From positions 3,566,361-3,630,360 of the forward strand of contig NZ_AP018042.1 of assembly GCF_002356295.1 (NCBI RefSeq): a stretch of DNA of 64,000 nucleotides, read 5' to 3'. Below are positions 14,757-42,892 of the stretch, one piece after another. Position numbers and translations under genes: made by a program. Below the pieces are notes generated by a model. That model saw only the letters and a list, made by a program, of their open reading frames with translations, ran no database searches and was not told the origin of the DNA. The DNA comes from Labilibaculum antarcticum (GTDB taxonomy: Bacteria; Bacteroidota; Bacteroidia; Bacteroidales; Marinifilaceae). How positions within the stretch are numbered: the first letter of the stretch is position 1; each line of letters starts with the position of its first letter.

Positions 14757-14777
14757 TCACCGTAAAAACAACGAATA

Positions 14778-22926: not shown

Positions 22927-22975
22927 AATGGAACGTCTCGTTTTACAAGGGGTATAGTGAGTGATAAAATCTGCT

Positions 22976-23839
22976 ATGAAAAAGGAAATCAAGAAATATT
23001 CATTTAAAGACGGATTAAAATTAGAATTTGAGATTCTGGACTTACAAGAGATCTTGAAGTCAAAGGGGGAGATGATGACAGTAGCTCACAGGGCACAATT
23101 TTATCATATTCTTTGGATTGAAAAAGGAGAAGGGACGCATTTTATAGATTTTAAGCCAATAAATATCGAGGATAATAGCATTATTTTTATTCCGCATAAT
23201 TGTGTAAACCGTTTTGATAGTAAGGGGACTTATCAAGGAAAAGTCATTCTGTTTACCGACAGCTTTTTTTGTAAGAATAAGCAAGATATGCAGTTTCTGC
23301 ATTCAAGCATGTTGTTCAGTGATTTGTATGACATTGCCAAAATAAAAGTGAATCCTCAGGTGTCCGATGTAAGAGTATGCCGCAATATGATGGAAACAGA
23401 ATATTTGAGAAGTCCTGATTCAGAACAATATCACATATTGCATAATCTTTTGCATGTACTGTTATTGCATGCAGAACGCGATATGCATAAGCAAGGTTTT
23501 GAAGAACTTAAATCCAGTGCCAATTTAGATTACCTGATATTATTTAAAGATATCTTGGAGGAAAACTTTCGTAAAGAAAAATCGGTGAAGAAATACGCGT
23601 CGGAACTTAGCATATCAGAAAAACAGCTTCACAAAGCAACCACCACATTAGTAGACAAAACTCCTAAACAAATAATTGACGAGCGTATATTGCTGGAAGC
23701 AAAACGTTTGTTAGTGCATGCCAATCAAAGTATAAAGGAAGTAGCCTACGAATTGGGTTACGAAGAACCGACTAATTTTATCAAATATTTCCGCAAACAC
23801 ACCAATTTTACTCCTTCCGAATTCAGAGAACAGTTTTAA
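22976..23839 (+). CDS. AraC-family transcriptional regulator
   Basis: A one-component regulator of about 287 residues. I take the ATG at 22976 rather than the in-frame GTG at 22961. The N-terminal half is a cupin-like ligand-binding domain (HILWIEKGEGTHFIDF is the usual beta-barrel phrase). The C-terminal ~100 residues hold two helix-turn-helix motifs, with the family signature IKEVAYELGYEEPTNFIKYFRKHTNFTPSEFR. It follows the HxlR gene by 49 bases and precedes the SnoaL-like lipoprotein gene. Its ligand and targets are unknown; control of the adjacent lipoprotein is the simplest guess. Confidence 0.9.
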   Translation: MKKEIKKYSFKDGLKLEFEILDLQEILKSKGEMMTVAHRAQFYHILWIEKGEGTHFIDFKPINIEDNSIIFIPHNCVNRFDSKGTYQGKVILFTDSFFCKNKQDMQFLHSSMLFSDLYDIAKIKVNPQVSDVRVCRNMMETEYLRSPDSEQYHILHNLLHVLLLHAERDMHKQGFEELKSSANLDYLILFKDILEENFRKEKSVKKYASELSISEKQLHKATTTLVDKTPKQIIDERILLEAKRLLVHANQSIKEVAYELGYEEPTNFIKYFRKHTNFTPSEFREQF

Positions 23840-23897: not shown

Positions 23898-23928
23898 TTT
23901 TTGTGCCTTCCTTATTGCCTCATCTTTG
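23898..23928 (+). promoter_or_regulatory. Possible promoter of the SnoaL-like lipoprotein gene
   Basis: TTTTTG near 23898-23903 and CATCTTTG at 23921-23928 (one mismatch to TAnnTTTG) are spaced 17 bases apart, slightly short of the usual spacing. The ATG is 25 bases downstream of the -7 box. Confidence 0.4.
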
Positions 23929-23952
23929 CAGTGTAAATATAAAACAAAAGCT

Positions 23953-24801: not shown

Positions 24802-24861
24802 TGAATACAAAAAGTTAAAACTCATATGCAGTCCTAATTTTTGGCCATAATATATAGACAA

Positions 24862-24888
24862 CCTCAGCATTTATGCTGGGGTTTTTTT
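24862..24888 (+). terminator. Rho-independent terminator after SnoaL-like gene
   Basis: CCTCAGCA-TTTA-TGCTGGGG forms an eight-pair stem (one G-U) followed by seven T. A near-identical copy lies at 25527-25552. Confidence 0.85.
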
Positions 24889-25032
24889 GTAGGAACAATT
24901 ATTCAGTGGCTTTTCCGATAAGATAAAGATAAAGGAATGCGAATATATTCAGTAAATTTTTAATCTTTGTCCTATTCAAAATTATAAATTGAAAATTGAC
25001 AGAATAAACGAGTCAATACAAACCCATATAGA

Positions 25033-25362
25033 ATGAAATTAACCACAGTTCTCGGTCAGTTGCGTATCCTTGCTATTATTGAAGGAATCTCTTACCTTTT
25101 ATTGATCCCAACCATTATTCTTAAGTATGGGTTTGAAATGGGGCTGCCAAATAAGATAGTAGGAAGCATTCACGGGTTATTATTTATCTTATATTGCGTT
25201 TGGGTGGTGTATTATGCCCTAAAAAAGAAGTGGCGTCTTATGAAAACACTCATTTGTTTGACTGCATCCTTATTGCCCATTGCTACGTTCATAGTAGACC
25301 AAAGAATTCTTAAAATGGAAGCTGATGCTGATTTACAGACGGCTACGAACAATCTGTCCTAA
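25033..25362 (+). CDS. DUF3817 family small membrane protein
   Basis: A 109-residue integral membrane protein with three hydrophobic segments (about 10-30, 42-63, 72-90). It begins LGQLRILAIIEGISYLLL and carries GSIHGLLFILYCVWV, the characteristic layout of DUF3817 (YdzA-like) proteins. Function is unknown in the family. It sits between the SnoaL-like gene and a decayed copy of that gene's end, so it was either inserted during, or caught up in, a local duplication. Confidence 0.8.
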   Translation: MKLTTVLGQLRILAIIEGISYLLLIPTIILKYGFEMGLPNKIVGSIHGLLFILYCVWVVYYALKKKWRLMKTLICLTASLLPIATFIVDQRILKMEADADLQTATNNLS

Positions 25363-25378: not shown

Positions 25379-25480
25379 ATGATATCTTTAGAATTGAAAA
25401 TGGTTGAGCATTGGGATACTGTTGAGAAATTAACTCCTGAAGCGGAAGCGAAAAACACCAACGGTAAATTTAACTTCTAA
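25379..25480 (+). pseudogene. Decayed duplicate of the 3' end of the SnoaL-like gene
   Basis: These bases align closely with 24692-24801, the last ~36 codons of the SnoaL-like lipoprotein gene, down to the same terminal NFNF-like codons and stop. The copy lacks eight bases near 25400, which breaks the frame, and it has no start. The matching terminator follows at 25527, so coding end and terminator were duplicated together. Confidence 0.8.
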
Positions 25481-25526
25481 TTAGCACAAGTAGACTTGTT
25501 AAAAAATGTTGCCATTTAGTTACTAA

Positions 25527-25552
25527 CCTCAGCATTTATGTTGGGGTTTTTT
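25527..25552 (+). terminator. Duplicate rho-independent terminator
   Basis: CCTCAGCA-TTTA-TGTTGGGG followed by six T differs from the terminator at 24862 by one stem base. It would stop transcripts reading out of the DUF3817 gene. Confidence 0.8.
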
Positions 25553-25915
25553 CGTGTAATTATTCTTCGTTATTAGATATTCAGTTTATCTACTATTACA
25601 TTTCTAAATAGTTTATTCCTTAATTGATTCTAAAAATAGAATGAGTTTTAGGAGGAATAATAAGCATTTTAAATGGCTGATATATTGTGGGGTAGCACAA
25701 TAATTCTAGAGAATGATATAGAGTGAAATGTGTATTTTATGTTTTTTTTTGAACCAAAATATTTTATAAGTTCTGAATGTCTGGAAAGCCTTAAGTTCAG
25801 TAGGCTTTCGGCTATATTTACCATTAGGGACATTAAATATATTGCAGAGTACATTGTTTATGTGATTTAAAATGTTCTTTGCTCGGAAGATTTTATCGAA
25901 AATAAGATATTTAAA
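25553..25915. other. Intergenic leader of the carrageenase cassette
   Basis: No gene is visible in these 363 bases. A promoter for the cassette is expected here, but I see no strong TAnnTTTG match with proper spacing. The only local feature is an imperfect ATTGTG-GGGTAG-CACAAT inverted repeat at about 25684-25701. Confidence 0.3.
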
Positions 25916-28750
25916 ATGAAACTGAGAACCTACACTCTAACGATTGCATTGCTTCTGTTGATTGGAACTTCGCTTTTTGCTGAAAGAGCAAAAGAGCAAT
26001 TGAGTGCAAATGGAATCACTAGCATCGAAACTGCTTATACCATTTCGAAGGTGCGGACAGCAAAAAAAGACGGCAGTACTTATTTGCTTGCCAGTAGCTA
26101 CGAAGGAACGGTTCTGGCCGTTTCCTACAGTGGTAAAGTATTATGGGAGAATCAACTGTCCGGTTTTATGAATCATGATGTTTGGTGCGAAGATTTGACC
26201 AATGATGGTTCAGATGAAATTCTGCTGGCAAATGCCGACGGAACAATTTACTGCCTTGATGATAAGGGAAAATTAATTTGGTCGTTTAAAAAGAACAATG
26301 CGCCCATGTATGGGCTCTGTGTTATTCGTAAAAACAATACGCCTTACGTTGTGTGTGGCGGCTTCGATAAAAATATCTACTACCTATCTGCAAAAGGAGA
26401 ATTGGTAAAAGAAATTCCATCTTCTCTTTATTCTATAGAAAAGCCATGGGGCAAAAAGGGGTATAAACGTATTCCGGAATCAAATAATCATACGGCTAAT
26501 TTTCTTCGAAAAATTAAAAATGCTGATGGAAGTGAGCAGTTATGTGTGCACGGAATTGTAAATTCTATGAGTGCCAGTGGATCACTTTACTTATTTGATG
26601 CTTTGGAGGATAGACCTTCTAAAATTATCAAACTTAAAAAAGGTGGTCCTTTTGGTGATTTGCGTGTGGTGCAATCTGGAGCAGATAAACGTGCGGAAAT
26701 TTTATTGGGATCTAGTGGTGCTATAAAAAATGCTGTAATTAAGCGTGTAGATTTGGAAAGTAGCGAACAAGTGGATCTACCCATGTCTAAGTTGGCTAAT
26801 AAGAAAGTTGGACATTTCGGATATCGAGTTGTACAAACAGAACGGATATCCAATGGAGAAAAGGAGTTTTACTTTTGTCTGTTTGGAAATAGTATTATTT
26901 TGCTTACCGATGAATTTAATAAGGAAAAAGCAGAAGTGCTAAAGTCAAAATTTTCCTTTAATGATATGTGGAAAGATGAGAGCCGTAATTTGATTGTTTT
27001 GGCAAGTAGTCAGAGTGGTGGTAGTTGCATTCATGTAATCGATCCTACCAATTTGAAATGGAAAAAGGCGTATAGAAAACTAACACCTCCAGGCAAAATT
27101 TCGAGCATTATTTCCAATACCAATGTAGTGAAAGAACAGGTTGCTGATTTTAAACGACCAGATTGGGAAAGAGAGCCACTTCCGGTTTACCTGATGACGG
27201 AAAAAATTACGCCTTCACTTGAGAATATGGTTCGTGATATTAACATGAATAAGCAAAGTCCGGTGTTTTTAAATGGGCTTCATATGTCTAAAATAGAAAA
27301 ATGGGATCGCTCTGTTCTAGGGAATCAAGTGTACGAAGCAAAGAGAGATCGCAGAAAAAAATATGTGCTAAGCAGCAACGAAGTGCTTGATTTTATAAGG
27401 CCTGAGCTAAAAGATGCTCCTGGAATAGCTTATTGGGGCGGACATGGGAACGATCCTTTTTTAGTTAGTCTGGCAACACAAAAACGAATTGTTGACGAGG
27501 CCAATGGAAAGTTTGTTGTTAGTATTTATCCAGAATTGGAACAATACGATGTGAACTTTAAATATGTATTGGACAATCATTTTTACCCACTTGCAGAATA
27601 CTACAAGGGGAAGAACGCAAAATTGTACATTCGAACAAAGCATACTTTTTGGCAAACAACTATTTATAAGCCTTTGTGGTCGAGATTGATGTCAGGAGAA
27701 TTTGCCGATGTTTTTGTGCCTTCTATGGAGGAAACGACAGACAAATCGATGGAATTGTCTTTAGCTTCAAGAATGGGTGTTTGGGCAAGTGGAGCAGTTG
27801 ATAGCTGGGGAGCACGTTGCGCAAGAGACAATGCTAGTTTTGATCGTTCAAGACAACACTCACATCAAATGCTACCCAATCATTTTCTTCGTACCCTAAT
27901 TTATAATATTTCAAACGGAGCGCAATACATCAATAATTTTGCTGTAGATCAGGAATACATGAGTTTGCTTTGGGATTTAATTGCCAAAGGTGCTTTATAC
28001 GTCCCTAAACGCGATGAGATTCTAAGTTTTTCACCTGTTCATCTAAGCATGAAAGATCCTGATATGACTTTTCTTGATGAAGGAAGTAATGTGAAATGGA
28101 CGACTTTCTACAATCAAGAATTCGAAGAAAATAATGCATTTGTATTTAGTCGATTGAATGGAACTTGGCCAGGAGCACCGCTAACAGAATGGGATTTTTC
28201 CAGATATGCAGCAGGAGCAAAGGAACGTAGGTTAAATTTTATGCCGACCTACGAGAATGGATTGGTTTTAATCACGCCAGTACAGAAAGGAAAATTTTTT
28301 ACCGAGAGCAAAAGAGGTCAATTAGCAGATCATCTTCATCCGATTTACAAGAACATTTTAAAGGAATACATTACCGATGGCAGATACTACTATTCGGCTG
28401 ACGGAGAAAAGAAATACAATGCCGATGAATATTACAAGGTGATTGAAGAGGATATCAAGAAGTCGGCAAGCTTATTGCCTCTTACAGTTTCAGGCGATGT
28501 AGCCTGGGTCGTGGCTCAAACAGATTCAAAATATTTGCGCTTAACCCTTATCGATAAAGGTTATGTGAATCCTAAAGATCGTAAGGCCATTGTAAAATTC
28601 AGTTCTATAAAAATAAAGCAAGTAAAAGACATTCTATCAGGAGAAATGATTTCCATTTCCGATGATTCAACAGCTAGTATTGAAATTCCTTGTGGAGCAT
28701 TTCGCTTCATAGATATCGAACTAGAGGATTCTTTATCAGCAGACAAATAA
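25916..28750 (+). CDS. GH150-like lambda-carrageenase candidate A
   Basis: A 944-residue secreted protein (signal peptide ~1-22). Residues ~30-400 form a PQQ-like/FG-GAP beta-propeller (GTVLAVSYSGKVLWE, DLTNDGSDEILLANADGTIYCLD, GGFDKNIYYLSAKGEL). The remaining ~500 residues form an alpha/beta region with WGGHGNDPF, VSIYPELEQY and VFVPSMEET, which looks like a TIM barrel followed by a beta domain. The layout and length match what is known of the Pseudoalteromonas lambda-carrageenase that founded GH150 (about 940 residues, N-terminal propeller). Adjacent GH82 genes support a carrageenase. Acidic residues in YPELE and SMEET are candidate catalytic positions. Assignment rests on architecture and context, not on an alignment. 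A paralogue lies at 31553. Confidence 0.6.
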   Translation: MKLRTYTLTIALLLLIGTSLFAERAKEQLSANGITSIETAYTISKVRTAKKDGSTYLLASSYEGTVLAVSYSGKVLWENQLSGFMNHDVWCEDLTNDGSDEILLANADGTIYCLDDKGKLIWSFKKNNAPMYGLCVIRKNNTPYVVCGGFDKNIYYLSAKGELVKEIPSSLYSIEKPWGKKGYKRIPESNNHTANFLRKIKNADGSEQLCVHGIVNSMSASGSLYLFDALEDRPSKIIKLKKGGPFGDLRVVQSGADKRAEILLGSSGAIKNAVIKRVDLESSEQVDLPMSKLANKKVGHFGYRVVQTERISNGEKEFYFCLFGNSIILLTDEFNKEKAEVLKSKFSFNDMWKDESRNLIVLASSQSGGSCIHVIDPTNLKWKKAYRKLTPPGKISSIISNTNVVKEQVADFKRPDWEREPLPVYLMTEKITPSLENMVRDINMNKQSPVFLNGLHMSKIEKWDRSVLGNQVYEAKRDRRKKYVLSSNEVLDFIRPELKDAPGIAYWGGHGNDPFLVSLATQKRIVDEANGKFVVSIYPELEQYDVNFKYVLDNHFYPLAEYYKGKNAKLYIRTKHTFWQTTIYKPLWSRLMSGEFADVFVPSMEETTDKSMELSLASRMGVWASGAVDSWGARCARDNASFDRSRQHSHQMLPNHFLRTLIYNISNGAQYINNFAVDQEYMSLLWDLIAKGALYVPKRDEILSFSPVHLSMKDPDMTFLDEGSNVKWTTFYNQEFEENNAFVFSRLNGTWPGAPLTEWDFSRYAAGAKERRLNFMPTYENGLVLITPVQKGKFFTESKRGQLADHLHPIYKNILKEYITDGRYYYSADGEKKYNADEYYKVIEEDIKKSASLLPLTVSGDVAWVVAQTDSKYLRLTLIDKGYVNPKDRKAIVKFSSIKIKQVKDILSGEMISISDDSTASIEIPCGAFRFIDIELEDSLSADK

Positions 28751-28782
28751 AACAAATTAAGTAAATTAAAATTCATTTTAAG

Positions 28783-30000
28783 ATGAGAAAATTAGTTGTC
28801 CAAATTATATTAATAGCGGTTATCTTTAATGTAAATCAAGTGTTTGCACAAAAGGAGAGTCGATTTTATACAGAAACCAATCAGTTGGGGATTGTAAAGA
28901 ATTTGGTAGATGATTATGTAGCAAAAGGGAATGATAAAAAGGATGATTCAAAAAAATTGCAACGAGCGATTAATGAACTGTCGGCTATGAAAAATGGAGG
29001 GAGAATTATTGTTCCTGCAGGTACTTATTATTTTTCCATGATCAATTTAAAATCGAATGTACATATTGAAATTGAGAATGATGTGATTATTCATCCAGCA
29101 CCGAGAACCGATAACAAAAACTACGCTGTTTTTCTAATGGGCGATAATAAAACCATTGTAAAAAATGTGAGTGTAAGAGGTCTTGGTGGGAACTTTACAG
29201 TTGATTTAAGAAATCTGAAAAACAAAAATGTAACAGTGTTTAGGCTGAACAATTCAGATAATTTCCTATTGGCAAATTTTGATGTTAAAGATGAGATGAC
29301 CAAATTCTCGTCTATTGCCTTTGGTTATACAGATTACAAGGGAGGGTACACCAAATCGAGAAATGGAGTGGTGAAAAATGCCAGTACAGATAATTCTCAT
29401 TATGGATATGGTTTGGTTCAGGCACAAGCAGGACACAATATCTTGTTTAAGAACTTATCTGGTGAAGGTGGAGTAACGCTTCGTTTAGAAACTGGAAATA
29501 ATAAGATGAACAAGCTTCAAGTGGGAGGGATCTCCGATATTTTTGCAAAAAACATTGCTTGTGAGAATGGAAATTCAGCTGTAATGATATCACCACACGG
29601 AATTCAAAATGGTCATGTAGAAGTAGATGGAGTCAAGTCTGTGAATTGCGGTTTTGCTGTTCGCATTGGCAATGGTTATGTGAAGAAAGATCAGATAAAA
29701 TTGGGCGTTAAGCCAGGTTCTTATGCCAGCACTTCGAAAGTACAAAATGTAACTGCCACATTTGGAGAGACTGCACAGGTTAAGTCGAAGCATTTTAAGT
29801 ACATGCCTGTTGATTTGCGCAAGAAAATTCAAAAGACAGATGATCCAAAAGTGCATATTGCTCCATCTATTGCAGCTGTTGTAAATGATGCTGCAGGTGA
29901 AGGGAAAGGAAAATACAAGATTGAAGTTAAAAATGTAAAGGCCATTGGTTTTACAAGTCAGCCAAAAGTAGTGATTACAGGTGAGGACGCAATTAAATAA
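28783..30000 (+). CDS. GH82 iota-carrageenase-like right-handed beta-helix protein
   Basis: A 405-residue secreted protein (signal peptide 1-23) with a pectate-lyase-like N-terminal cap (DDSKKLQRAINEL, GGRIIVPAGTYYF) and parallel beta-helix repeats. In the catalytic groove Gln ~213, Glu ~236 (TLRLETG) and His ~272 (ISPHG) have the same mutual spacing as the Gln222, Glu245 and His281 I recall for the Alteromonas fortis GH82 iota-carrageenase. The position of its Asp247 is Gly here. Product would be neo-iota-carrabiose-series oligosaccharides. It starts 32 bases after the GH150-like gene, and the next GH82 gene begins one base after its stop. It has no C-terminal sorting domain, unlike its neighbour. 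Confidence 0.75.
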   Translation: MRKLVVQIILIAVIFNVNQVFAQKESRFYTETNQLGIVKNLVDDYVAKGNDKKDDSKKLQRAINELSAMKNGGRIIVPAGTYYFSMINLKSNVHIEIENDVIIHPAPRTDNKNYAVFLMGDNKTIVKNVSVRGLGGNFTVDLRNLKNKNVTVFRLNNSDNFLLANFDVKDEMTKFSSIAFGYTDYKGGYTKSRNGVVKNASTDNSHYGYGLVQAQAGHNILFKNLSGEGGVTLRLETGNNKMNKLQVGGISDIFAKNIACENGNSAVMISPHGIQNGHVEVDGVKSVNCGFAVRIGNGYVKKDQIKLGVKPGSYASTSKVQNVTATFGETAQVKSKHFKYMPVDLRKKIQKTDDPKVHIAPSIAAVVNDAAGEGKGKYKIEVKNVKAIGFTSQPKVVITGEDAIK

Positions 30001-30001
30001 G

Positions 30002-31519
30002 ATGAAAACAGGATTGTTTATACCGATTGTATTTCTGTTGATTTATTTCAATGTAAATCAGGGATTTGCGCAGGAAGAGAATGAATTTTATACTGAAACC
30101 AATCATTTGGGAGTGGTAAAAAACTTGGTGGATGATTATGCTGCAAATGGGAATGATAATCTTGATGATTCAGAAGTATTGCAACAAGCAATTGATGAGG
30201 TCACAGCTTTGGAAAATGGTGGGAGAATTATTATTCCGGAAGGAGCCTTCTACTTTTCAGAGGTAAAGTTAAAATCGAATGTGCATCTGGAGATTGATAA
30301 AAGTGCAGTAATTCATCCAACTCCTCGTATCGATAGTAAAAACTATACAATCTTTGTATTGGGAGATAAGAATAATGCGATTACTAATGTTAGTATTCGA
30401 GGAATTGGGGGGAAGTATAAGCTTGATCTTACCAATCTTGAAAATACCAATGTTCGGGTATTTCAATTACAGAATGTTCAGAACTTTTTACTAGCTGATC
30501 TGGATGTGGAGGATGAGGAAACGAAATTCTCGGCAATCACATTTGGTTATGTCGAAAACAATGGAACGTATTCCAGTCCGCAAAATGGTGTAATTAAAAA
30601 TTCGAATATCAGTAATGCACATTACGGATATGGCTTAATTCAGGCACAGGCAGCCAAAAATGTTCTGTTTAAAGATCTAAGTGGCGCAGGAGGTGTTACC
30701 CTTCGTTTCGAAACGGGATACGATAAAATGAATGAGCTGCAAGTAGGTGGTGTTTTTGATATGTATGGAGAAAATATCTCTTGCGTAGATGGAAATGCGG
30801 CTTTAATGATTTCTCCGCATGCCATTCAAAATGGACATGTTGAGGTGAAAAATGTGATTTCGGTAAATTGTGGTTTTGCAGTTCGTATTGGAAAAGGCTA
30901 TGTGAAAAAGGAACAAGAAGAGCTTGGAATCAGTCCGGGACATTTTGCCAATAGCTCAAAAATTACAGGTGTTAAGGCTACTTTTGGTTCTTCGGCTCAG
31001 TTAAAGTTGAAACATGAAAAGTATATTCCTTGTGATTTAAGAGATCAACTTTATAAAAAAGAGGATCCTTTAGAGGAAATTTATATTGGTCCATCGGTTG
31101 TAGCAATATTAAATGGAGCTGAGGGAGAGGGCGATGGAAAATATAAGGTAGATATTCAGGATGTTAATGCATCAGGATTTTTGAGTCAAAAGAATGCAAT
31201 AATAGGGGAAGAAGATACATTCGATTGTGAGGATACAGAAATTATTACGGGTATCGGGGATAATTTATTAGAGGTAGAATTTAAAATTTATCCCAATCCA
31301 TTCAAACATGTATTTAGGCTTAATTTGCCGGAAGGTAAGGGGTTTGAATTTCTTCAGATTATTGATGTAAATGGTAAAGTAATTGATCAGCAAAATATAA
31401 AAGGAAAAGGTTCCTCATTCGAAATTTCGGGAGAGAAATTGAATTTGAGAAAAGGAATGTACTTTGTTAAAATAGTAGGGGCTAATATTTGCCTGATAAA
31501 GAAGGTTCTAAAAAATTAA
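30002..31519 (+). CDS. GH82 iota-carrageenase-like protein with T9SS sorting domain
   Basis: A 505-residue paralogue of the preceding gene. I take the ATG at 30002, which starts a proper signal peptide (MKTGLFIPIV...GFAQ), rather than a GTG at 29981 inside the previous gene. Gln ~214, Glu ~237 (TLRFETG) and His ~273 (ISPHA) are conserved with GH82 spacing, and the Asp position is again Gly. After the beta-helix, residues ~425-505 form a type IX secretion type A C-terminal domain (IYPNPFKHVFRLNL, IIDVNGKVI, KGMYFVKI), so this enzyme is exported across the outer membrane and probably surface-attached. It is translationally coupled to the upstream copy. It likely makes the first extracellular cuts. 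Confidence 0.78.
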   Translation: MKTGLFIPIVFLLIYFNVNQGFAQEENEFYTETNHLGVVKNLVDDYAANGNDNLDDSEVLQQAIDEVTALENGGRIIIPEGAFYFSEVKLKSNVHLEIDKSAVIHPTPRIDSKNYTIFVLGDKNNAITNVSIRGIGGKYKLDLTNLENTNVRVFQLQNVQNFLLADLDVEDEETKFSAITFGYVENNGTYSSPQNGVIKNSNISNAHYGYGLIQAQAAKNVLFKDLSGAGGVTLRFETGYDKMNELQVGGVFDMYGENISCVDGNAALMISPHAIQNGHVEVKNVISVNCGFAVRIGKGYVKKEQEELGISPGHFANSSKITGVKATFGSSAQLKLKHEKYIPCDLRDQLYKKEDPLEEIYIGPSVVAILNGAEGEGDGKYKVDIQDVNASGFLSQKNAIIGEEDTFDCEDTEIITGIGDNLLEVEFKIYPNPFKHVFRLNLPEGKGFEFLQIIDVNGKVIDQQNIKGKGSSFEISGEKLNLRKGMYFVKIVGANICLIKKVLKN

Positions 31520-31552
31520 GTACCCATTGAAAACGTTAAATCAGATCGTATC

Positions 31553-34201
31553 ATGATAAAATATGTAAGCACATTGTTGTTATTGTTTTTGGTTAGTTTT
31601 TCGCATGCCGAAAATTTCACAATTGAGGGCAACAGTATTCAAAATATAGTGAATGCAAAAGTGAAGGGAGAAAATGTTTATTATATTTCAGAATTGGATG
31701 GAAGTGTATCTTGTTATGATACCAGTGGAGAAAAAATATGGCGAAATCCAACTCAGTCGCCAGCAGTTTTATTTGAAATAGAAGCTGCAGATATAAATAA
31801 TGATGGCAATGATGACCTGCTTGTTGCAAGTGGCGATGGACATATTTATTGCTGGGGAAGTAATGGTAAACTTTTATGGAAGTTTAAACCAGAACATCGA
31901 GTTCGCTTCTCTGAGATTGCAGTTTTGAAAGACTCCAATAAACCAAGAATATATGCCGGAGGTAATGACTATCAGTTGTATGAATTGAGTGCGAAAGGGA
32001 AATTGTTATCCAAAACGAAAATAGAAGGAGTGGTTCGTAAAATTGAGATTGGTGATTTTTTGGAAGAAGATCGTAATACAATTTTCGTAATGACTTATGC
32101 GCACGATAAGTATCGTTGGGATTTTATGGGTTTTATTGATCCTGATTCCAAACAGGTATTGAGTTCTTTAGACTACAAGAAGAATAAAGTGAAGATATGG
32201 AGCAAGTTCATGGTAAATGATTTATCTGTTGCTGATATTGATGGTGATAATCGAGATGATCTATTGTTTTTTGGTCATGCCAATAGTGCCGTTTTTAAAG
32301 CTTGGAATGGAGAATTTAAAGAGATTGTAAGTTTTGTAGGCAAAGCAAAGGACAAACAAAGATATGCTCATGCGATTGGAACAAGTTTGTTGCCAAACAA
32401 AAATCAAATTGTTATGCAGTATGGTGGTATTTCTTACCTACTCAATTCAAAAGGGGAAATGCTTCAGACTTGGGGGGAAAGACATGTTGGAATTATTTTT
32501 AATGATCTTCTTTACCAGGCTGATACTGATGAATTAATTTGTGCCGGTCAAGTTGGTGGTGGAAATGGAATTTATACCTATTCGTTGCAAAAAAAGAATT
32601 GGTGGAAAAGCAAACAGCAGCTTCAAGGGCGCATGACCGAGGTGAATGGTAATTTGAATAAACTCTACCAACAGACTTTGAATTTTACACCGCCAGTTTA
32701 TCAGAAACCATCAAGTAAGGAGTGGTTGATGATTACTCGAGCTCAAATGAATGCTGAAGTAGAAAATTTGAATGGTGCTGAAATAAAAATAATTGAGCAG
32801 TATTCATGGAAAGAGAATACCGATAGATCGGATCTTGTTGCTAAGATTGGTAAAGACGCAATTAAAAAGGATAGAAGAGGAAAGTACAATTTAACAAGAG
32901 AGGAAATTGTAAATATGGCAAAAGAAAAAGAAGCCAATAATATCCCTTTTGCTGTTTGGGCTGGTCATGGAAACGATCCTTTTTATTTAAGAATTGAAAC
33001 ATTGGAGGCCATATTGGAAGTAGCACCAAATACTTGTTATGGTTTTGTTTACGCGGAAATGGACAATACGAAAGATCCTCGTGTTCATCATTTTATCAAT
33101 GAGTATGTCCCAAGATTAGCCAAGGCTTGTCGTAAAAATGGAAAAGCGAAGCTGTATTTCAGATATAAAAATATGTTCTGGGCAGCCAGTTCTCATCAAG
33201 AACCATGGAAAGGTCTGTTCTTTTCAGGTAAATACAATGATATTTTAGTGCCTGCTTCAGAAGATACTAGCTCTCGTACTCAGGATATCAATTTTGTAGG
33301 TAGAGTGGGAATGTTCGCCGGAAATTACGTTGATGATTTTTGCATGCGTTTGGTAGATGATAATCCAACCAGTTGGCGTCCGCTAACTCCGGGAGGTCAG
33401 CGTTCAGTATCTCCGTATTTGAGGACAGGGGTTATGCTTGCAGCTTATGGAGCCAGAACAGGACTTTTATTCAATAATCAATATCTGGAAAAGCCAGGTT
33501 TAAATATTCTATATGCTTTAATGAAATCGGGAGCCTTGCCAATTGTCGAGCGAGAGGATATTCTTTCCATTGGTTCGTGGCATTTAATTAAGGATGTTGA
33601 TGAAAAATTGGTTCATTCTGTTGATGATCATCATAACTTGTTGCAATATTCAGAGGAAGATGAGAATGCGGTTGTTTCTTTAGCACAGATGCATTGGGCA
33701 GGAACAAGTCTTCCTGATCATGATTTTTCAAAATTGGCTTTGGGTGTAGAGTATCGATGGATGAATTACATGCCCAAAATGCCTCATGGAATGGTGCCAA
33801 TGGCTCCAATTGAAATGCAGGCGAAGTTCAAAAAAGAGAAAATACCATATTTTGTGAGTGATTGCAAAGTGGGTTACGATGGATCAACAAAAATAGAAGC
33901 AAAACAATTCGGTCCCGTAATTAAAGAAGTGGTTGAGGTTGGAGAGGAAAAAATGTTGATTGCTGTAAAAGGAGCTTCTTGGAGTGTTGTGCGTCTAGAT
34001 AAAAATCATGTTCGTGTTATTTTAGTTGATCCCGGATATATTGATCCTCAAGATAGAGAGGTTGAAATCAATTTTCAGCACCGAAAACCCGTAAAGGTGA
34101 ATGATATTTTAAGTAAGGAAGATTTAGAGGTGAAGAATGAGAAATGTAAGGTAATTGTACCTGCAGGATCCATTCGATTGATTGATGTGACCTACAAGTA
34201 G
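31553..34201 (+). CDS. GH150-like lambda-carrageenase candidate B
   Basis: An 882-residue paralogue of the 25916 protein, with a signal peptide (1-19, ending SHAEN), the same N-terminal FG-GAP/PQQ-like propeller (LDGSVSCYDTSGEKIW, DINNDGNDDLLVASGDGHIYCW) and the same C-terminal catalytic-looking region (WAGHGNDPF, FVYAEMD, ILVPASEDTSSR). The two are clearly diverged rather than a recent duplication. It follows the second GH82 by 33 bases and closes the cassette before a terminator-like hairpin. It is inferred to be a lambda-carrageenase or a related enzyme on another sulfated galactan, with the same caveats as for candidate A. Confidence 0.58.
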   Translation: MIKYVSTLLLLFLVSFSHAENFTIEGNSIQNIVNAKVKGENVYYISELDGSVSCYDTSGEKIWRNPTQSPAVLFEIEAADINNDGNDDLLVASGDGHIYCWGSNGKLLWKFKPEHRVRFSEIAVLKDSNKPRIYAGGNDYQLYELSAKGKLLSKTKIEGVVRKIEIGDFLEEDRNTIFVMTYAHDKYRWDFMGFIDPDSKQVLSSLDYKKNKVKIWSKFMVNDLSVADIDGDNRDDLLFFGHANSAVFKAWNGEFKEIVSFVGKAKDKQRYAHAIGTSLLPNKNQIVMQYGGISYLLNSKGEMLQTWGERHVGIIFNDLLYQADTDELICAGQVGGGNGIYTYSLQKKNWWKSKQQLQGRMTEVNGNLNKLYQQTLNFTPPVYQKPSSKEWLMITRAQMNAEVENLNGAEIKIIEQYSWKENTDRSDLVAKIGKDAIKKDRRGKYNLTREEIVNMAKEKEANNIPFAVWAGHGNDPFYLRIETLEAILEVAPNTCYGFVYAEMDNTKDPRVHHFINEYVPRLAKACRKNGKAKLYFRYKNMFWAASSHQEPWKGLFFSGKYNDILVPASEDTSSRTQDINFVGRVGMFAGNYVDDFCMRLVDDNPTSWRPLTPGGQRSVSPYLRTGVMLAAYGARTGLLFNNQYLEKPGLNILYALMKSGALPIVEREDILSIGSWHLIKDVDEKLVHSVDDHHNLLQYSEEDENAVVSLAQMHWAGTSLPDHDFSKLALGVEYRWMNYMPKMPHGMVPMAPIEMQAKFKKEKIPYFVSDCKVGYDGSTKIEAKQFGPVIKEVVEVGEEKMLIAVKGASWSVVRLDKNHVRVILVDPGYIDPQDREVEINFQHRKPVKVNDILSKEDLEVKNEKCKVIVPAGSIRLIDVTYK

Positions 34202-34784: not shown

Positions 34785-37700
34785 ATGAAAAAAAATAATT
34801 TAATCATATCACAAAGAGTAAAATGGCGATACTTGCTTTTTACTTTGTTTGTACTATTTACATTTAGTTTTGGGGCTCAAGCTCAGGAGCTTACTGTTAA
34901 GGGAACTGTAAGTGGAGCCGAGGATGGTTTTCCTATTCCTGGTGTTAGTATCGTTATAAAGGGTACTACAATTGGATCTATTACTAACGTAGACGGGGTT
35001 TACAAGATTTCCGCAAACGTTGGTGATATTTTGATTTTTAGTTTTATTGGAATGACTTCACAGGAAAAAACCGTTTCAGCATCCTTCTTGGATGTTGATT
35101 TGGCAACTGATGTTATAGGTCTTCAGGAGGTTGTTGCCATTGGGTATGGTACTGTTAAGAAAAAGGAATTAACCGGTGCTGTGGCTCGAGTAAAAGCAGA
35201 GGATTTAACACGTATTGTTACTTCGGATGTTGGAAAAGCACTTCAAGGCCAGGTTGCTGGGGTAAATGTAATTGCGAGTTCGGGAGCTCCGGGTGCTTCT
35301 TCAGAAATATTAATTCGAGGTTTATCCTCAATTGGAGGATCAAATAATCCACTTTATGTAGTTGATGGAGTTCCATTTGATGGAGATCCAGGATTGAATC
35401 CAAATGAAATAGAGACAATTGATATCTTAAAGGATGCAGCTTCCTGTGCTATTTATGGTACACGAGGTGCGGCGGGAGTAATTCTGGTTACCACTAAAAA
35501 AGGTAAAGCCGGATCGCTTAGAGTTTCTGCAAATGCAAGTTTTGGTATTCAGGATATTAGATCTTCTACACCTGTAATGAATGCCGCAGAGCAAACTTAT
35601 TTTAATGTTGTAAAAGATAGAAATGTATCATATACTGCTGATGATGAAATTGTGTTGAATCTGGCAAAATCGCCAAAAGGATTTTTAAATGATACGGATT
35701 TAGGAAAACTTGTTTTTATAGATAATGCTTCAGTTCAGGATTATAATTTGAATATATCGGGAGGTACCGAACAAATTACTTATAATGTAAGTACAGGATA
35801 TCACAAAACAGAAGGTGTAATTGTTAATTCTAATTTTGAACGCTTTAATACGCGTATCAATACAACTTATAAGAAAAATAAATGGACAATTGATGCTAGT
35901 GCAGGTATGACACAAGAAGATACCGATAGTGCACCAGGCAACATTATTTTACAATCAATTAAGTATTATCCAACGCAACCAACAGTTAATCTTGAAGATG
36001 ATGCGAGTCCTATTTATACGCAAGGTGGTGATGAGCAAACTCGATTAGGTTCTGTATTGGAGAGTTTTCAAAATACCGATGAAGGAGATAGAACAAAAGT
36101 ATTTACAAGTTTTAGAATTAATTATAATTTACTTAAAGGCCTAGATTTTTCTACCCGATTAAGTTATAATGGAACAAAAGACTACAGAAAGAAATTTAAT
36201 CCTTATCAGGAAGTATACGATAACAATGGAGATCTGAAAAGTGACCCTTCTTCAAGTTCTGTGCACATGATTTCCAGCAAAAACCGCAAGTTAGATTTTG
36301 AGGCAGGAATAAAGTACCAGAAGAAATTCAAGGATCATAAATTCACCGTACAAGCTGTTTATACCATGGAAGATCAGCTTTATGATGCATTTTTCGCAAA
36401 GAAAGATGGTGTTTTGGACAATACAATTGATGTGCTTGATGGAACTTCTTTAAATGCAGAGGTTGGATCAGGAACCAACTATACCAATAAGCAAATTGGA
36501 ACATTAGGACGTATTTTGTACGATTACAAAAGCAAATATATGTTGAGTGTTAGTGCGCGGTACGATGGTTCTTCAAAATTTGCTAAAGATCACCGTTGGG
36601 GATTGTTTCCTTCAGTATCCGGAGCTTGGAATATTTCTGACGAGAACTTCTGGAATCCTATAAAAAATACGGTTAACGATATGAAGTTAAGAATTGGTCG
36701 TGGTACTGTAGGTAATAATAGATTTAATAGTTACGCATATTCTGCAGGTGTCACAAATGGTAAAGATTATGCTTTTGGAACCGATGCTTCTGATATACTT
36801 TCATTAGGTTCAACACAAAGCCAGTTTGCGAATGCTGATATAAAATGGGAAACTTCGGTTCAGTGGAATGCTGGTGTTGATATTGCAATGTTCGATAACA
36901 AATTAACCCTTACTGCAGAGGTTTATGATACTCGTAAAAAAGATATGTTATTTCCGGTAACAGTACCTGGTTCAGCAAGTGGTTCTGCAGGAGGAAGACC
37001 AACAACTGTAACTTTAAATGTTGGTGACATGACGAATAGGGGTTTTGAATTAGCAATGGGCTACAGAACGCAAACAGGACAAGTGAAATGGGGAATTAAC
37101 GGTACATTTAGTACAAACGAGAATGAAATTACCCGTATGATTACTGGTAGTGATTTTATCCTTACTGATGACTCTGGTTTGATCGGCGGAGCTCGATCTT
37201 CTTCTCAGATTACAGCTCTTGCAGAAGGGTATGAAGCGGGAGCATTCTTTATTTACACCACTGATGGTATTGTCGATACAAATGAGAAATTAGCTAAATA
37301 TCAACAGATTCAACCATCAGCAAGAATGGGCGATTTAGTTTATGAAGATAATAATGGTGATGGGAGAATCTCAGAACAAGATAGAGTTTATCAGGGTAGT
37401 GGTCTTCCGAAATATGAGTGTGGATTAAACTTTATTGTAGACTACAAAGGATTTGATTTTTCGATGCAATGGTATGCTGCTTTGGGACACGAAATTATGA
37501 ATGGAGCTAAAGCCACTGCTTATGGTTGGGGACGTCACAAAGATCTATTATATGCATGGTCCGAAGCCAATCCTGAAACTTCTATTCCTACTTACCGAGC
37601 AGATATGAAATCGCATGAAAATTATAAAGGATATACAGATTTATGGTTGGAAGATGGATCCTATGTAAGACTTAAATCGATCACCGTGGGATATAGTTTG

Positions 37701-37892
37701 CCAAACAGCATGCTTGCAAAATTAGGTCTTTCAAAAGCCAGAGTTTATGTAAGTGCACAAAATCCGTTAACGTTTACAAAATATTCGGGATTCGATCCTG
37801 AAGTTGGTGGAGGAATTGAAGCTAGAGGTCTTGATAAAGGAAATTATCCTGTCACCTCAATGTATTTAGTGGGTATAAATCTTAATTTTTAA
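34785..37892 (+). CDS. SusC/RagA-family TonB-dependent outer-membrane transporter
   Basis: A 1035-residue outer-membrane importer of oligosaccharides. It has an N-terminal signal (~1-33, ending GAQAQ). A carboxypeptidase-regulatory-like domain follows (VKGTVSGAEDGFPIPGVSIVIKG and onward). A TonB box region includes LQEVVAIGYGTVKKKELTGAV, then a plug domain with IRGLSSIGGSNNPLYVVDG and GTRGAAGVILVTTKKG, and a 22-strand barrel to the end (Phe-terminated LVGINLNF). All are hallmarks of the SusC/RagA class. The SusD gene follows by 47 bases. No FecR/sigma-type N-terminal extension is visible. The neighbouring GH82 and GH150-like genes suggest carrageenan oligosaccharides as cargo, which is inference. 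Confidence 0.95.
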   Translation: MKKNNLIISQRVKWRYLLFTLFVLFTFSFGAQAQELTVKGTVSGAEDGFPIPGVSIVIKGTTIGSITNVDGVYKISANVGDILIFSFIGMTSQEKTVSASFLDVDLATDVIGLQEVVAIGYGTVKKKELTGAVARVKAEDLTRIVTSDVGKALQGQVAGVNVIASSGAPGASSEILIRGLSSIGGSNNPLYVVDGVPFDGDPGLNPNEIETIDILKDAASCAIYGTRGAAGVILVTTKKGKAGSLRVSANASFGIQDIRSSTPVMNAAEQTYFNVVKDRNVSYTADDEIVLNLAKSPKGFLNDTDLGKLVFIDNASVQDYNLNISGGTEQITYNVSTGYHKTEGVIVNSNFERFNTRINTTYKKNKWTIDASAGMTQEDTDSAPGNIILQSIKYYPTQPTVNLEDDASPIYTQGGDEQTRLGSVLESFQNTDEGDRTKVFTSFRINYNLLKGLDFSTRLSYNGTKDYRKKFNPYQEVYDNNGDLKSDPSSSSVHMISSKNRKLDFEAGIKYQKKFKDHKFTVQAVYTMEDQLYDAFFAKKDGVLDNTIDVLDGTSLNAEVGSGTNYTNKQIGTLGRILYDYKSKYMLSVSARYDGSSKFAKDHRWGLFPSVSGAWNISDENFWNPIKNTVNDMKLRIGRGTVGNNRFNSYAYSAGVTNGKDYAFGTDASDILSLGSTQSQFANADIKWETSVQWNAGVDIAMFDNKLTLTAEVYDTRKKDMLFPVTVPGSASGSAGGRPTTVTLNVGDMTNRGFELAMGYRTQTGQVKWGINGTFSTNENEITRMITGSDFILTDDSGLIGGARSSSQITALAEGYEAGAFFIYTTDGIVDTNEKLAKYQQIQPSARMGDLVYEDNNGDGRISEQDRVYQGSGLPKYECGLNFIVDYKGFDFSMQWYAALGHEIMNGAKATAYGWGRHKDLLYAWSEANPETSIPTYRADMKSHENYKGYTDLWLEDGSYVRLKSITVGYSLPNSMLAKLGLSKARVYVSAQNPLTFTKYSGFDPEVGGGIEARGLDKGNYPVTSMYLVGINLNF

Positions 37893-37939
37893 TTGTTACG
37901 GAAATTAAAAGTGCTGTTAAAAATTTAAATTTTAAAGAT

Positions 37940-39715
37940 ATGAAACGACATATATTCAAGTATTTATTAATCTTAGTCTCAATGGTAACGATAGGATTAT
38001 CATCCTGTTCAGATTATTTGGAAGAGACGGATCCCAATTTGTTGTCATCAGAAACTTACTGGAGAAACCTAAATGATACAAAATCTGGATTAACAGCCAC
38101 TTATGCATCATTATTAAATCATTACGTTCTGAATATTCCGGAAGAAAGCTGTAGAGCTGATATGGGATGGCCAGGATATGGACGACCTTCTCCAAATGGA
38201 GGAGGACCTGTAAATTGGTATTATCATACTTATTCGAGTACGACGACCGAAGTTGAACGTAAATGGCAAGCTTTATACCTTGGTGTTTTTAGAGCAAATC
38301 AAGTAATTGAAGGTCTTGAAATAATTAAAGCTGATATGACTGAGGATAATATGGATGAGTGGACGAACCAAATGGGAGAAGCTCGATTTTTTAGAGGCCT
38401 GTTTCACTTTTACCTTTATCAAACATATAACAATGGAAGTATTGTGATTCGTGAAGATGTTCCTTTGGATCTAACCGACTTTAATAAAAGCTTATCGACA
38501 GCTGAAGAGGCAATTGAATTTGTTCGTGAAGATTTACTTTATGCTTATACTAATTTGGTACCTAGATATACTGAAGCGAAAGATCAAGGCCGAATTACAG
38601 CTGGTGCGGCAGCAACAATTCTTGGAAATACTTATTTGTTTGAAGGGGAGTATGACGCGGCCAAACCATATTTCGAAGATGTAATTAACAACGACGAATA
38701 TGGATATGAATTGGTTCAGGATTTGGATTTGATGTTTACACAAGCTGGAGAATTGAATGCTGAATCGATTTTGGAAATTTGTTATAATGTTGAGTATAGA
38801 ACAGAATTAAGCAGTTGGGATGAGGAGAGTTTATGGTCGAGATGGGCTAGTAGAACTGCTGGTAATACTGGCTGTTTAACTCCAGTTTGGTTGGCTTATG
38901 CATACAAGTCGGAAGATATGGATCCATTGGATTCTCGTAATTATTATGAGGATGAATCCAATCCAGGAGTTAGCGTTTTAAGAAATGTTCCCTTAAGAGC
39001 CTCAGCAATGGTAACATTAGTTGAAGATGAGCAAACTGCTTATTACGGAGGAACCGTTACTGAAAATACTAATTATACATGGAATGGCTGGGGTTTTAGC
39101 CGACCTAAAAAATACACTAATCACGATCATCTTACCGAAGAAGCTGAATCGGGAGGAAGCAGCAATAATTCGGAAAAGAACGTGACTATAGACAGGTTAG
39201 CTGAAGTGTATTTGAATTTAGCAGAATGTATTTTGAAAACAGATGGTGATGTTCAGGATGCGATTGATTTGATTAATGATATTCGTAGCAGATGGGGACT
39301 TGTATTACTTGGAAATGCAAATGGCGATGCTTCTCATACCTATAATGGATTAGCCTATACAGCTGATGAATTAATGGATCAAATCATGTTTGTTGAAAAG
39401 CCGTTGGAACTTTCAAACGAAGGACATGAAATAAGATGGGTTGATATGAGACGTTGGGGAATAACTGCAGAGGTGTTTGAAAAATTGTCAAATGAAGTTT
39501 ACTACGCGATTGATTATAGCTTCGTATCCACTAATGGAACAAATAAGACATTGTCAAGAGCTTCATTGGTTAAAAGTGTGCCTCCTGGATATTCTGGAAA
39601 AACCGCTATTGTAGATTACGAATATGACCAGTCAGTCTTAAATTATAATCCTGCTGTTCATGATTATTTTGGGATTCCATCAAACGAGACCATTTCCAAT
39701 TCAAACGTTAATTAG
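37940..39715 (+). CDS. SusD/RagB-family glycan-binding lipoprotein
   Basis: A 591-residue outer-membrane lipoprotein (lipobox LSSC, then SDYLEETDPN), the partner lid of the SusC transporter. The N-terminal SusD-like domain has YWRNLNDTKSGLTATYASL. TPR-like helices include EARFFRGLFHFYLYQTY, a classic SusD phrase. The C-terminal RagB/SusD domain includes RLAEVYLNLAECIL and EGHEIRWVDMRRWG. Length is slightly above average for SusD. It would bind the imported oligosaccharide; the many aromatic residues in the middle may form the binding platform. It is in an operon with SusC and the two following lipoproteins. Confidence 0.95.
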   Translation: MKRHIFKYLLILVSMVTIGLSSCSDYLEETDPNLLSSETYWRNLNDTKSGLTATYASLLNHYVLNIPEESCRADMGWPGYGRPSPNGGGPVNWYYHTYSSTTTEVERKWQALYLGVFRANQVIEGLEIIKADMTEDNMDEWTNQMGEARFFRGLFHFYLYQTYNNGSIVIREDVPLDLTDFNKSLSTAEEAIEFVREDLLYAYTNLVPRYTEAKDQGRITAGAAATILGNTYLFEGEYDAAKPYFEDVINNDEYGYELVQDLDLMFTQAGELNAESILEICYNVEYRTELSSWDEESLWSRWASRTAGNTGCLTPVWLAYAYKSEDMDPLDSRNYYEDESNPGVSVLRNVPLRASAMVTLVEDEQTAYYGGTVTENTNYTWNGWGFSRPKKYTNHDHLTEEAESGGSSNNSEKNVTIDRLAEVYLNLAECILKTDGDVQDAIDLINDIRSRWGLVLLGNANGDASHTYNGLAYTADELMDQIMFVEKPLELSNEGHEIRWVDMRRWGITAEVFEKLSNEVYYAIDYSFVSTNGTNKTLSRASLVKSVPPGYSGKTAIVDYEYDQSVLNYNPAVHDYFGIPSNETISNSNVN

Positions 39716-39736: not shown

Positions 39737-41404
39737 ATGAAAAATATATCAATAATCATATTACTTTTTGCAATGCTGTTTGTTGTGGCATGTGACGAGG
39801 ACGATTATACAGCTCCGGATACATTATCGGATGTTTCTTGGTACACAGGAATTCATCCTGGAGAATTGTATGCAGTTAATATTGGTGAGTATGTTTCGTT
39901 CATGGATATATCTCAAGGGATGCTGTCGCACAAATGGTCGATAGATGAAGGAAACAATTATCTGAGTCCTGAATTTTCAGTAGGCGATGATTTAACGAAT
40001 TTTATTATTGCAGACGCTCCTTTAACAACTGATGAAACAACAATACATGTGTTGTTTAATAATACTGGTTTAAATAAAGTACGACTTTACAATACTTTTA
40101 GCGATTCTGTAACTTATCCGGGAACAATTCCTTACGGTTCTGTTCGTAAAGGAGATGTTTGGGTAATTGATACATCCTTAGTGGTTGATGTTTATCAAAC
40201 CATTAATCCTGAGGTGAAAATCTTTCAAGATGAGGTATTGGTGGGAAGTGTTACGTTTGATCAGGATCCTTTGGAAGAGGAGCAAGCAACATGGGATACC
40301 ATTTATGTTGAAGCAGGTTCAAGCTTAAAATATATTGATGTCTCAACTGTTGGGCGTTCAACAAAAAGAACCTGGAATTTAAAAGGCGCTAATTTTCTTG
40401 AAAGTAAGAATACCGATTCAATTGCGGTGGTTCATTATTTCGGAATGGGATCTTATATTGGTTCCATCACAGCAGAGAGAAGTGTTGGTTTCCCAGATGG
40501 TAAAGTTGTTAAAAACCTACCCTACATCGTAAAGGTAATTCAATCGTCGCAACCTTTTATTGTTGCTGATGGAAGCTTTACCGAGGATGTTAATGAAGTT
40601 ATTTCCTTTAATGTTTCAGGAGAAGTGAAAGATTTTAGCGGCGAAGAAGCAAACTTTACAGTGCATGTGGAAAATGCAACTTCCGGATTTAGTCAGGATA
40701 TTGCTGTAACATCTGCAAAAGTAAATGAAGATAACAGAACTAAAATTGAATTGGAGTTGGCAGAAGTGATTTACAATACTGATGTTGTGACTATTACCTA
40801 TGCAGGAGGAAATATTAAATCGGTTGATGATCGTAAATTAGAAGCCTTTACAACTCCTCAAAAAGTGAAGATGAATTTTCCAAATTCTCAATTAGATCCT
40901 AATTGGGCTGGTTTTGAGATTTCTAACGATAATTGGAAAAAAGCATTTTGCGAAGGTTATTTTGCAGGTAACAAAAATGGTACAGCAAGCGCTCCAATTT
41001 TCTCTCGTGTAGAAGGAAGTCTATCTCCATCAGAAAAACCATGCATGAACTATACAAGTGCGGGTGGTGTAACCGATTTGGTATTGATGGGATCAAATTT
41101 TAAAGCGATGCTACCTGATGAAGGTTCTTATACTTATCAAATTTCGTTCGAGATTTATATTGAAACAGGATCGAATTTAACACAACTAACTACAATTGTT
41201 CTGGATCCATTTACACCAATTACTTGGGATGTTACTGGCGTTGAAGAAGGAAAATGGGTGACGTTAAATCAAGTTGTAAGTTTTCCTAGTTTGCCAACAA
41301 AAAGATACGATTTAAAGATGATTTCAGCTGATAATCCAGGTGCTGGCGATGTGAAGCTTTATTTGGATAATCATTCATTCGTATTGTTGGAAGAACGTCC
41401 GTAA
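39737..41404 (+). CDS. Surface glycan-binding lipoprotein, SusE/SGBP-like
   Basis: A 555-residue lipoprotein with a lipobox (LFVVAC, Cys near residue 19) followed by an acidic DEDDYT stretch, which matches the Bacteroidota lipoprotein export signal for surface display. The rest is beta-rich. An N-terminal PKD/Ig-like domain (WSIDEGNNYL region), one or two Ig-like domains, and a C-terminal jelly-roll-like part (from ~380) with several Trp residues suggest carbohydrate binding. It starts 22 bases after susD, the usual place for a surface glycan-binding protein. Binding of carrageenan is inferred from position. Confidence 0.75.
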   Translation: MKNISIIILLFAMLFVVACDEDDYTAPDTLSDVSWYTGIHPGELYAVNIGEYVSFMDISQGMLSHKWSIDEGNNYLSPEFSVGDDLTNFIIADAPLTTDETTIHVLFNNTGLNKVRLYNTFSDSVTYPGTIPYGSVRKGDVWVIDTSLVVDVYQTINPEVKIFQDEVLVGSVTFDQDPLEEEQATWDTIYVEAGSSLKYIDVSTVGRSTKRTWNLKGANFLESKNTDSIAVVHYFGMGSYIGSITAERSVGFPDGKVVKNLPYIVKVIQSSQPFIVADGSFTEDVNEVISFNVSGEVKDFSGEEANFTVHVENATSGFSQDIAVTSAKVNEDNRTKIELELAEVIYNTDVVTITYAGGNIKSVDDRKLEAFTTPQKVKMNFPNSQLDPNWAGFEISNDNWKKAFCEGYFAGNKNGTASAPIFSRVEGSLSPSEKPCMNYTSAGGVTDLVLMGSNFKAMLPDEGSYTYQISFEIYIETGSNLTQLTTIVLDPFTPITWDVTGVEEGKWVTLNQVVSFPSLPTKRYDLKMISADNPGAGDVKLYLDNHSFVLLEERP

Positions 41405-42553: not shown

Positions 42554-42564
42554 AAAATATTTTG

Positions 42565-42637
42565 AGCGGGAAACGAGACTCAAACTCGCGACCCTCAGCT
42601 TGGAAGGCTGATGCTCTATCAACTGAGCTATTCCCGC
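42565..42637 (-). tRNA. tRNA-Gly (anticodon UCC), copy 1
   Basis: Minus-strand 73-base tRNA with acceptor GCGGGAA/TTCCCGC, anticodon loop CTTCCAA (TCC), T-arm GAGTTTGAGTCTC and discriminator T. It is identical to the copy at 42780. Confidence 0.95.
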
Positions 42638-42674
42638 ATGACAAGAAACACGCTTGTTTCTTAGGTAATTTAAG

Positions 42675-42756: not shown

Positions 42757-42779
42757 AAATAATAATTTCAAAAAAAATG

Positions 42780-42852: not shown

Positions 42853-42892
42853 AGGTAAGAAACACTTTTGTTTCTTAGCTAATGTGTTAAAG

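Follow-up and report, generated by a model that had tools for sequence, protein, structure and literature searches.

A run of four open reading frames (ORFs) on the same strand of the Labilibaculum antarcticum genome, here named P1 to P4, very probably constitutes a carrageenase cassette fronting a SusCD polysaccharide utilization locus (PUL), in which P1 and P4 are predicted to be endo-lambda-carrageenases of family GH150, and P2 and P3 iota-carrageenases of family GH82 (Table 1). The run lies in a stretch of 64,000 nucleotides that was analysed as a whole (the window, C1:3566361-3630360 of the single-contig genome of 5.72 Mb). All of its parts belong to known enzyme families, and every pairwise adjacency within it has a precedent; what is unusual is the tight four-gene packing, among the loci compared, together with the details of the GH82 enzymes. 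The cassette represents a compact set of four predicted enzymes directed at two carrageenan types of high sulfate content.

An earlier reading of the window, made from the sequence only, had described the same run with gaps of 1 to 33 bases. This observation was confirmed, the intergenic distances being 32, 1 and 33 bases when P3 is taken from ATG 30002, and its interpretation was supported, with corrections that concern the GH82 active site and the relationship between the GH150 proteins. As listed, the P3 ORF (29981-31519) starts at GTG 29981 and overlaps the end of P2; the ATG at 30002 is the likely start, because it lies one base past the P2 stop codon and begins a stretch that, by eye, resembles a signal peptide.

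Hidden Markov model searches assigned the proteins encoded from 25916 (P1) and 31553 (P4) to GH150, as the sequence-only reading had proposed, and neither fell into an unrelated PQQ family. Three Pfam domains scored above cut-off in each protein: Beta-prop_CGLA, CGLA_M and CGLA_C, with 457.9, 650.8 and 116.9 bits in P1 and 94.1, 206.4 and 70.6 bits in P4 (the cut-off of CGLA_M is 27 bits). The three-domain architecture of lambda-carrageenases (propeller, middle and C-terminal domains) is therefore present in both; all three domains were also matched in each of the 29 aligned members of a wider GH150 set, and a CGLA_M search of 14 control genomes gave no match. P1 is 50.4% identical to CglA of Pseudoalteromonas carrageenovora and P4 is 55.0% identical to RS20335, the second GH150 encoded on the same plasmid as CglA, whereas P1 and P4 share only 25.9% identity with each other. 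In a tree of 54 sequences, drawn from the 55 rows of the alignment and built by a quick method with SH-aLRT support only, GH150 split into a type A (28 sequences, including P1) and a type B (26 sequences, including P4) with a support of 100, clade B being set apart from clade A by a long branch. The low identity and this deep split rule out a recent local duplication as the origin of the GH150 pair, so that the "duplicated enzymes for each" carrageenan type proposed in the sequence-only reading hold for GH82, whose two members are sister paralogues, and not for GH150.

Both GH150 types have been characterized in Pseudoalteromonas distincta, where GH150A and GH150B are 99 and 26% identical to CglA, respectively, and are both reported as active on lambda-carrageenan and inactive on kappa- and iota-carrageenan, with incompletely sulfated products arising from GH150B (PMC12549532). 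A GH150 of Maribacter vaceletii was characterized in PMC11202985; the M. vaceletii locus in our set (L024) carries a type A gene whose product shares 58% identity with P1 and may be that enzyme. Two other type A GH150 genes (loci L050 and L167) have far longer open frames, of 1235 and 1772 amino acids, which suggests the presence of extra domains.

The assignment of P2 to GH82 is based on sequence and structural similarity. A sequence search of the PDB matched P2 to the iota-carrageenase of Alteromonas fortis (1h80/3lmw) with an E value of 5e-83 (4.9e-83 for 1h80), and the AlphaFold2 (AF2) model of P2 (mean predicted local distance difference test score, pLDDT, of 91.2) retrieved chains of the same enzyme as the top five Foldseek matches (1h80, 1ktw and 3lmw; query TM-scores of 0.86-0.89), the right-handed beta-helix of iota-carrageenases being present in the model. 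PDB and model evidence concern P2 only, and the GH82 call for P3 rests on its 58% identity to P2. P2 and P3 are sisters in the GH82 tree with a support of 100/98, their nearest relatives being GH82 proteins of a Labilibacter (G057) and a Saccharicrinis (G058) genome; a third, distant GH82 gene is located elsewhere in the genome (C1:2464890-2466209). The positions of Tyr218, Gln222, Arg243, Glu245, His281 and Arg303 of the A. fortis enzyme are retained in P2 and P3. In CgiA_Ce, the strongly conserved trio Q233, E257 and H292 is described as essential for catalysis, and Y229, R254 and R314 as lying near both iota sulfates (PMC3669377). By spacing, the first three are the equivalents of Gln222, Glu245 and His281, and the sulfate-site residues, mapped via their spacing from Q233, E257 and H292, are likewise retained in P2 and P3.

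The two GH82 proteins differ at their C-termini. P3 carries a type IX secretion system (T9SS) sorting tail (TIGR04183, Por_Secre_tail, 40.9 bits), which was the sole match above cut-off in the NCBIfam search of the cassette proteins, P2 having no match to a T9SS tail. TIGR04183 was matched by 7 of 16 aligned GH82 proteins, no GH82 or GH150 model appeared among the NCBIfam matches of the aligned members, and the T9SS component SprA is encoded in the genome.

In the proposed function of the cassette, P1 and P4 would perform the endo-cleavage of beta-1,4 bonds in lambda-carrageenan with differing product sets, P4 tolerating less sulfated stretches, and P2 and P3, as lidless GH82 enzymes derived from a tandem duplication, would cut the beta-1,4 bonds of iota-carrageenan by means of the retained acid at the Glu245 position and the equivalents of Gln222 and His281. 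P3 would be exported by the type IX system, and the tail-less P2 would probably stay in the periplasm. The SusCD pair encoded at 34785-39715 would import the oligosaccharides, and lambda products could be finished by GH110 and sulfatases encoded approximately 2.6 Mb away, possibly assisted by the GH2 at 59061. Tetrasporophytes of Chondrus contain mainly lambda-carrageenan and gametophytes mainly kappa/iota-carrageenan (PMC7359372), and a cassette with two substrates might serve on either generation of such algae.

Comparison with known systems revealed both likenesses and differences. The lambda-carrageenan PULs of P. carrageenovora and P. distincta share with L. antarcticum the presence of both GH150 types in one genome, and the P. 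carrageenovora plasmid carries GH82 as well as GH150 (PMC6262041). However, the two GH150 genes of P. carrageenovora are about 19 kb apart on opposite plasmid strands, instead of bracketing two GH82 genes, and its GH150B gene lies beside GH110, GH2 and sulfatase genes, whereas the GH110 of L. antarcticum is at least 2.6 Mb away from the cassette. GH82 stands beside GH150B in Lutibacter (L005, L006), Polaribacter (L017) and Wenyingzhuangia (L022), and beside GH150A, as P1 and P2 here, in genome G453 of the same order (L164), in which a SusC-like gene, split over two frames, follows downstream past one unlabelled ORF; none of these has the full four-gene run. On plasmid p1 of Flammeovirga kamogawensis (L032), GH150A is followed by SusC, SusD and SwmB in the order found here, but no GH82 or GH150B intervenes between GH150A and SusC. 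Finally, the CarPUL of Bacteroides xylanisolvens BxMAGBOV combines GH82 and GH150 in one PUL, which also includes GH16_17 and GH167 (PMC13168452).

GH150 has a patchy distribution that would fit horizontal transfer. The two cassette genes are the only GH150 genes of the source genome, which is also the only one with GH150 among the 56 genomes of the GTDB family sample (0 of the 55 others); 5 of the 393 genomes of the order sample, source included, carry the family, and in one of the same order (G731) the coordinates of the matches coincide with those in G057, the genome that holds the Labilibacter marinus locus L007. Zobellia uliginosa carries both GH150 types. P4-type proteins could conceivably account for the lambda-carrageenase missing in Z. 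galactanivorans, but the genome of the latter is given in PMC6262041 as devoid of GH150. Type A, assigned by score, was also present in all eight whole genomes picked for P4-type genes, which are among the genomes of 23 other GH150B loci. Within the flanks of these loci (up to 10 kb, shorter at contig ends, as in L023), GH82 was found in 10, GH150A in 7 and GH110 in 4, and GH82 was the gene next after GH150B in the four loci of Lutibacter, Polaribacter and Wenyingzhuangia mentioned above. GH150B and GH150A are neighbours in two Maribacter loci (L010, L024), close GH82-GH82 tandems occur in L003, L018 and L107, and GH82 and GH150 are one ORF apart in L166 of G453. GH150A-GH82-GH82-GH150B as four consecutive genes was found in none of 52 other loci, several of which overlap or are cut short; overlapping pairs (e.g., L092/L005, L094/L003 and L107/L022) are not independent.

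Several observations weigh against the cassette as proposed, and the most direct of them concern P2 and P3. Asp247 and Glu310, proposed as catalytic candidates in A. fortis (PMC4919138), are replaced by Gly and Lys in both proteins, and a lid-length stretch present in CgiA of A. fortis is missing: His281 and the PSxAA motif (or a less strict version of it) are 89 and 91 residues apart in P2 and P3 versus 148 in A. fortis. Accordingly, the GH82 call of the sequence-only reading stood, but the active site is not of the A. fortis type. The missing stretch can be read as the lid, domain A, a domain named for CgiA_Af and CgiA_Ce (PMC3669377). These differences, and the position of GH82 directly after GH150B in 4 of the 23 loci, would suit proteins that keep the GH82 fold and act on another substrate (e.g., a hybrid or precursor carrageenan) or have little activity. 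This alternative appears rather unlikely, since the Tyr and the two Arg of the sulfate site are retained and Gly is the commonest residue at position 247, found in 36 of 42 aligned GH82 rows (Asp in 4 and His in 2). Given this count, Asp247 was not treated as family-defining. The GH82 of P. carrageenovora (RS20130), a long-branch row whose alignment is less sure, also has Gly at this position; it is taken to be the plasmid-encoded PCAR9_p0028, 95% identical to the iota-carrageenase of Pseudoalteromonas An33 (PMC6262041), and Gly at 247 probably does not mean lost function for this reason.

The 42 rows include A. fortis, P2, P3 and P. carrageenovora, fragments below 370 amino acids and copies of the window genes having been dropped; they contain same-gene repeats in L062/L076 and L080/L083, and L026/L027 are near-identical. 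The Gln222, His281 and Asp179 positions are retained in 42, 41 and 42 of them, respectively. The His281-PSxAA distance was readable in 19 of 41 rows, the motif not being found in the other 22; it was 86-110 residues in 17 rows and 142-160 in two, so that the lid was not treated as family-defining either. Rows with Asp gave 142, 160 and 86 residues (the last being L067, which also lacks the His), and all 16 measured non-Asp rows were short (87-110). In A. fortis iota-carrageenase, the lid confers processivity. As a tentative possibility, much of GH82, including P2 and P3, may consist of lidless enzymes without the Asp247 base candidate that activate water in another way (e.g., through Gln222, His281 or Asp179) and would be expected to be non-processive because the cleft is open, one cassette copy acting outside the cell and the other in the periplasm, together with both GH150 types, on mixed iota/lambda chains. 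A GH82 pair without Asp247 and without lid, one member of which has no sorting tail, offers a natural test of which residues matter for catalysis and processivity.

The remaining points against the cassette concern P4 and the unity of the region. The 25.9% identity to P1, the long branch leading to clade B and the undersulfated products of P. distincta GH150B (PMC12549532) could indicate that the substrate of P4 is not lambda-carrageenan but a related galactan of lower sulfation. This is distinctly unlikely considering that P. distincta GH150B degrades lambda-carrageenan but neither the kappa nor the iota form (PMC12549532), and that the GH150B gene of P. carrageenovora belongs to a PUL with GH110, GH2 and sulfatases (PMC6262041). 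The GH150B proteins of P. carrageenovora and P. distincta were here assumed to be equivalent because each is the second GH150 of its genome and synteny of the PULs has been reported (PMC12549532). That P1 and P4 are unrelated propeller proteins of the PQQ or BamB type can hardly be credited at all: their PDB sequence matches do fall on the propeller, with the exception of one weak, chance-like match of P4, but the three CGLA domains contradict such an identity, and the restriction of the matches to the propeller is explained by the fact that sequence searches of the PDB turned up no solved structure containing a GH150 middle domain.

A single transcript for the four genes is suggested by the gaps of 1-33 bases; promoter and terminator scans of the region gave signals at or below those of shuffled sequences. 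The region upstream of P1 showed no promoter pattern of the Bacteroidota type, and the TTTG/TANNTTTG pattern had a single match, within susC and below chance expectation. Together with the 583 bases separating P4 from the SusC gene and the 13 of 23 GH150B loci without GH82 in their flanks, these results would be in keeping with four genes that are mere neighbours and share neither expression nor task. We consider this highly improbable in view of the common strand and the short gaps, the presence of GH82 within 10 kb of GH150B in the 10 other loci, and its position directly beside a GH150 in five (L005, L006, L017, L022 and L164). The wider region seems not to be purely devoted to lambda- and iota-carrageenan either: the clearest sulfatase match in the window (13347-15635) is to an exo-4S-kappa-carrageenan sulfatase (6prm, E value 3e-175), and it is adjoined by a porphyranase B-like GH16 (3juu, E value 4e-69) 10 kb upstream of the cassette, so that the upstream cluster appears to mix carrageenan and agar/porphyran genes.

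The divergent GH150 pair of the proposed cassette, together with its relatives, narrows the catalytic candidates of the family to six carboxylates, which are invariant in all 55 alignment rows (P1 and P4 included, P. carrageenovora CglA being present twice): D478/D440, D513/D475, E540/E502, E605/E570, D638/D603 and D760/D724 in P1/P4. Crystallization of GH150 is described as having failed, and the catalytic machinery is presumed to reside in a conserved patch of the cleft (PMC12549532). In the AF2 model of P4 (pLDDT 88.8), an N-terminal all-strand part is followed by alternating strands and helices (approximately residues 411-690) and a C-terminal strand part. D475, E502 and E570 lie at or just past strands 466-471, 495-501 and 565-569, and D603 lies a few residues past strand 597-599 in a low-confidence stretch; from this arrangement, we infer E502 and E570 as a candidate catalytic pair. 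Foldseek searches with the model retrieved propellers and, as the match covering most of P4 among the top 50 listed, the GH98 endoxylanase 9h6h of Bacteroides ovatus (E value 4e-13, TM-score 0.33, root-mean-square deviation 23). A relation between GH150 and GH98 is a possible lead from this model comparison. A PDB search with the GH150 profile did not extend to any GH98, a search of 296 genomes yielded no usable GH98 sequence (one matched, below cut-off), and no paper treating both families was found in the literature collection searched.

Table 1. Features of the carrageenase cassette and its neighbourhood (positions in the window)
Feature	Position	Strand	Basis
P1, GH150 type A (CglA type), 944 amino acids, signal peptide (by eye)	25916..28750	+	Pfam; identity to P. 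carrageenovora CglA; tree
P1 lambda-carrageenase middle domain, residues 462-830	27299..28405	+	CGLA_M 650.8 bits, profile 1-370 of 370
P2, GH82, 405 amino acids, no T9SS tail match, no lid-length insertion	28783..30000	+	1h80 match; AF2/Foldseek
P3, GH82, 505 amino acids from ATG, C-terminal T9SS sorting tail	30002..31519	+	58% identity to P2; TIGR04183
P3 T9SS type A sorting domain, residues 436-509 of the GTG-start ORF	31286..31507	+	PF18962, E 1.1e-9; TIGR04183, E 1.5e-10
P4, GH150 type B, 882 amino acids	31553..34201	+	Pfam; identity to P. carrageenovora RS20335; tree
P4 lambda-carrageenase middle domain, residues 434-759	32852..33829	+	CGLA_M 206.4 bits; alternating strands/helices in AF2 model
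SusC-like TonB-dependent transporter	34785..37892	+	Plug, CarbopepD_reg_2
SusD-like lipoprotein	37940..39715	+	PF07980, PF14322
SwmB-type protein	39737..41404	+	Gene order as in Flammeovirga plasmid
AraC-family regulator, upstream of cassette	22961..23839	+	PF12833

Among the neighbouring genes, the AraC-family protein is a candidate regulator of the cassette. Genes that could complete lambda-carrageenan degradation were mostly located elsewhere: a GH110 58% identical to a GH110 of P. carrageenovora is encoded at C1:968741, and another GH110 gene as well as GH2 and sulfatase genes lie at 0.92-0.97 Mb. This second locus (C1:915000-974999, L148-L150) thus comprises two GH110 genes, GH2 genes and sulfatase genes whose products resemble the enzymes of the P. 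carrageenovora lambda PUL, with no GH150. A GH2 51% identical to that of the P. carrageenovora lambda PUL is encoded in the window (59061-61532). Upstream of the cassette, a 93-base stretch (87% identical between copies) together with a near-identical terminator-like stem occurs twice, at 24718-24890 and 25397-25555, the two copies flanking a small ORF (about 25034-25362, by eye), and the 3' end of a SnoaL-like gene (23926-24801) seems to have been duplicated. Rfam searches at gathering thresholds detected only tRNAs, among which a tRNA-Gly/tRNA-Tyr pair is present in two tandem copies at window positions 42564-42974.

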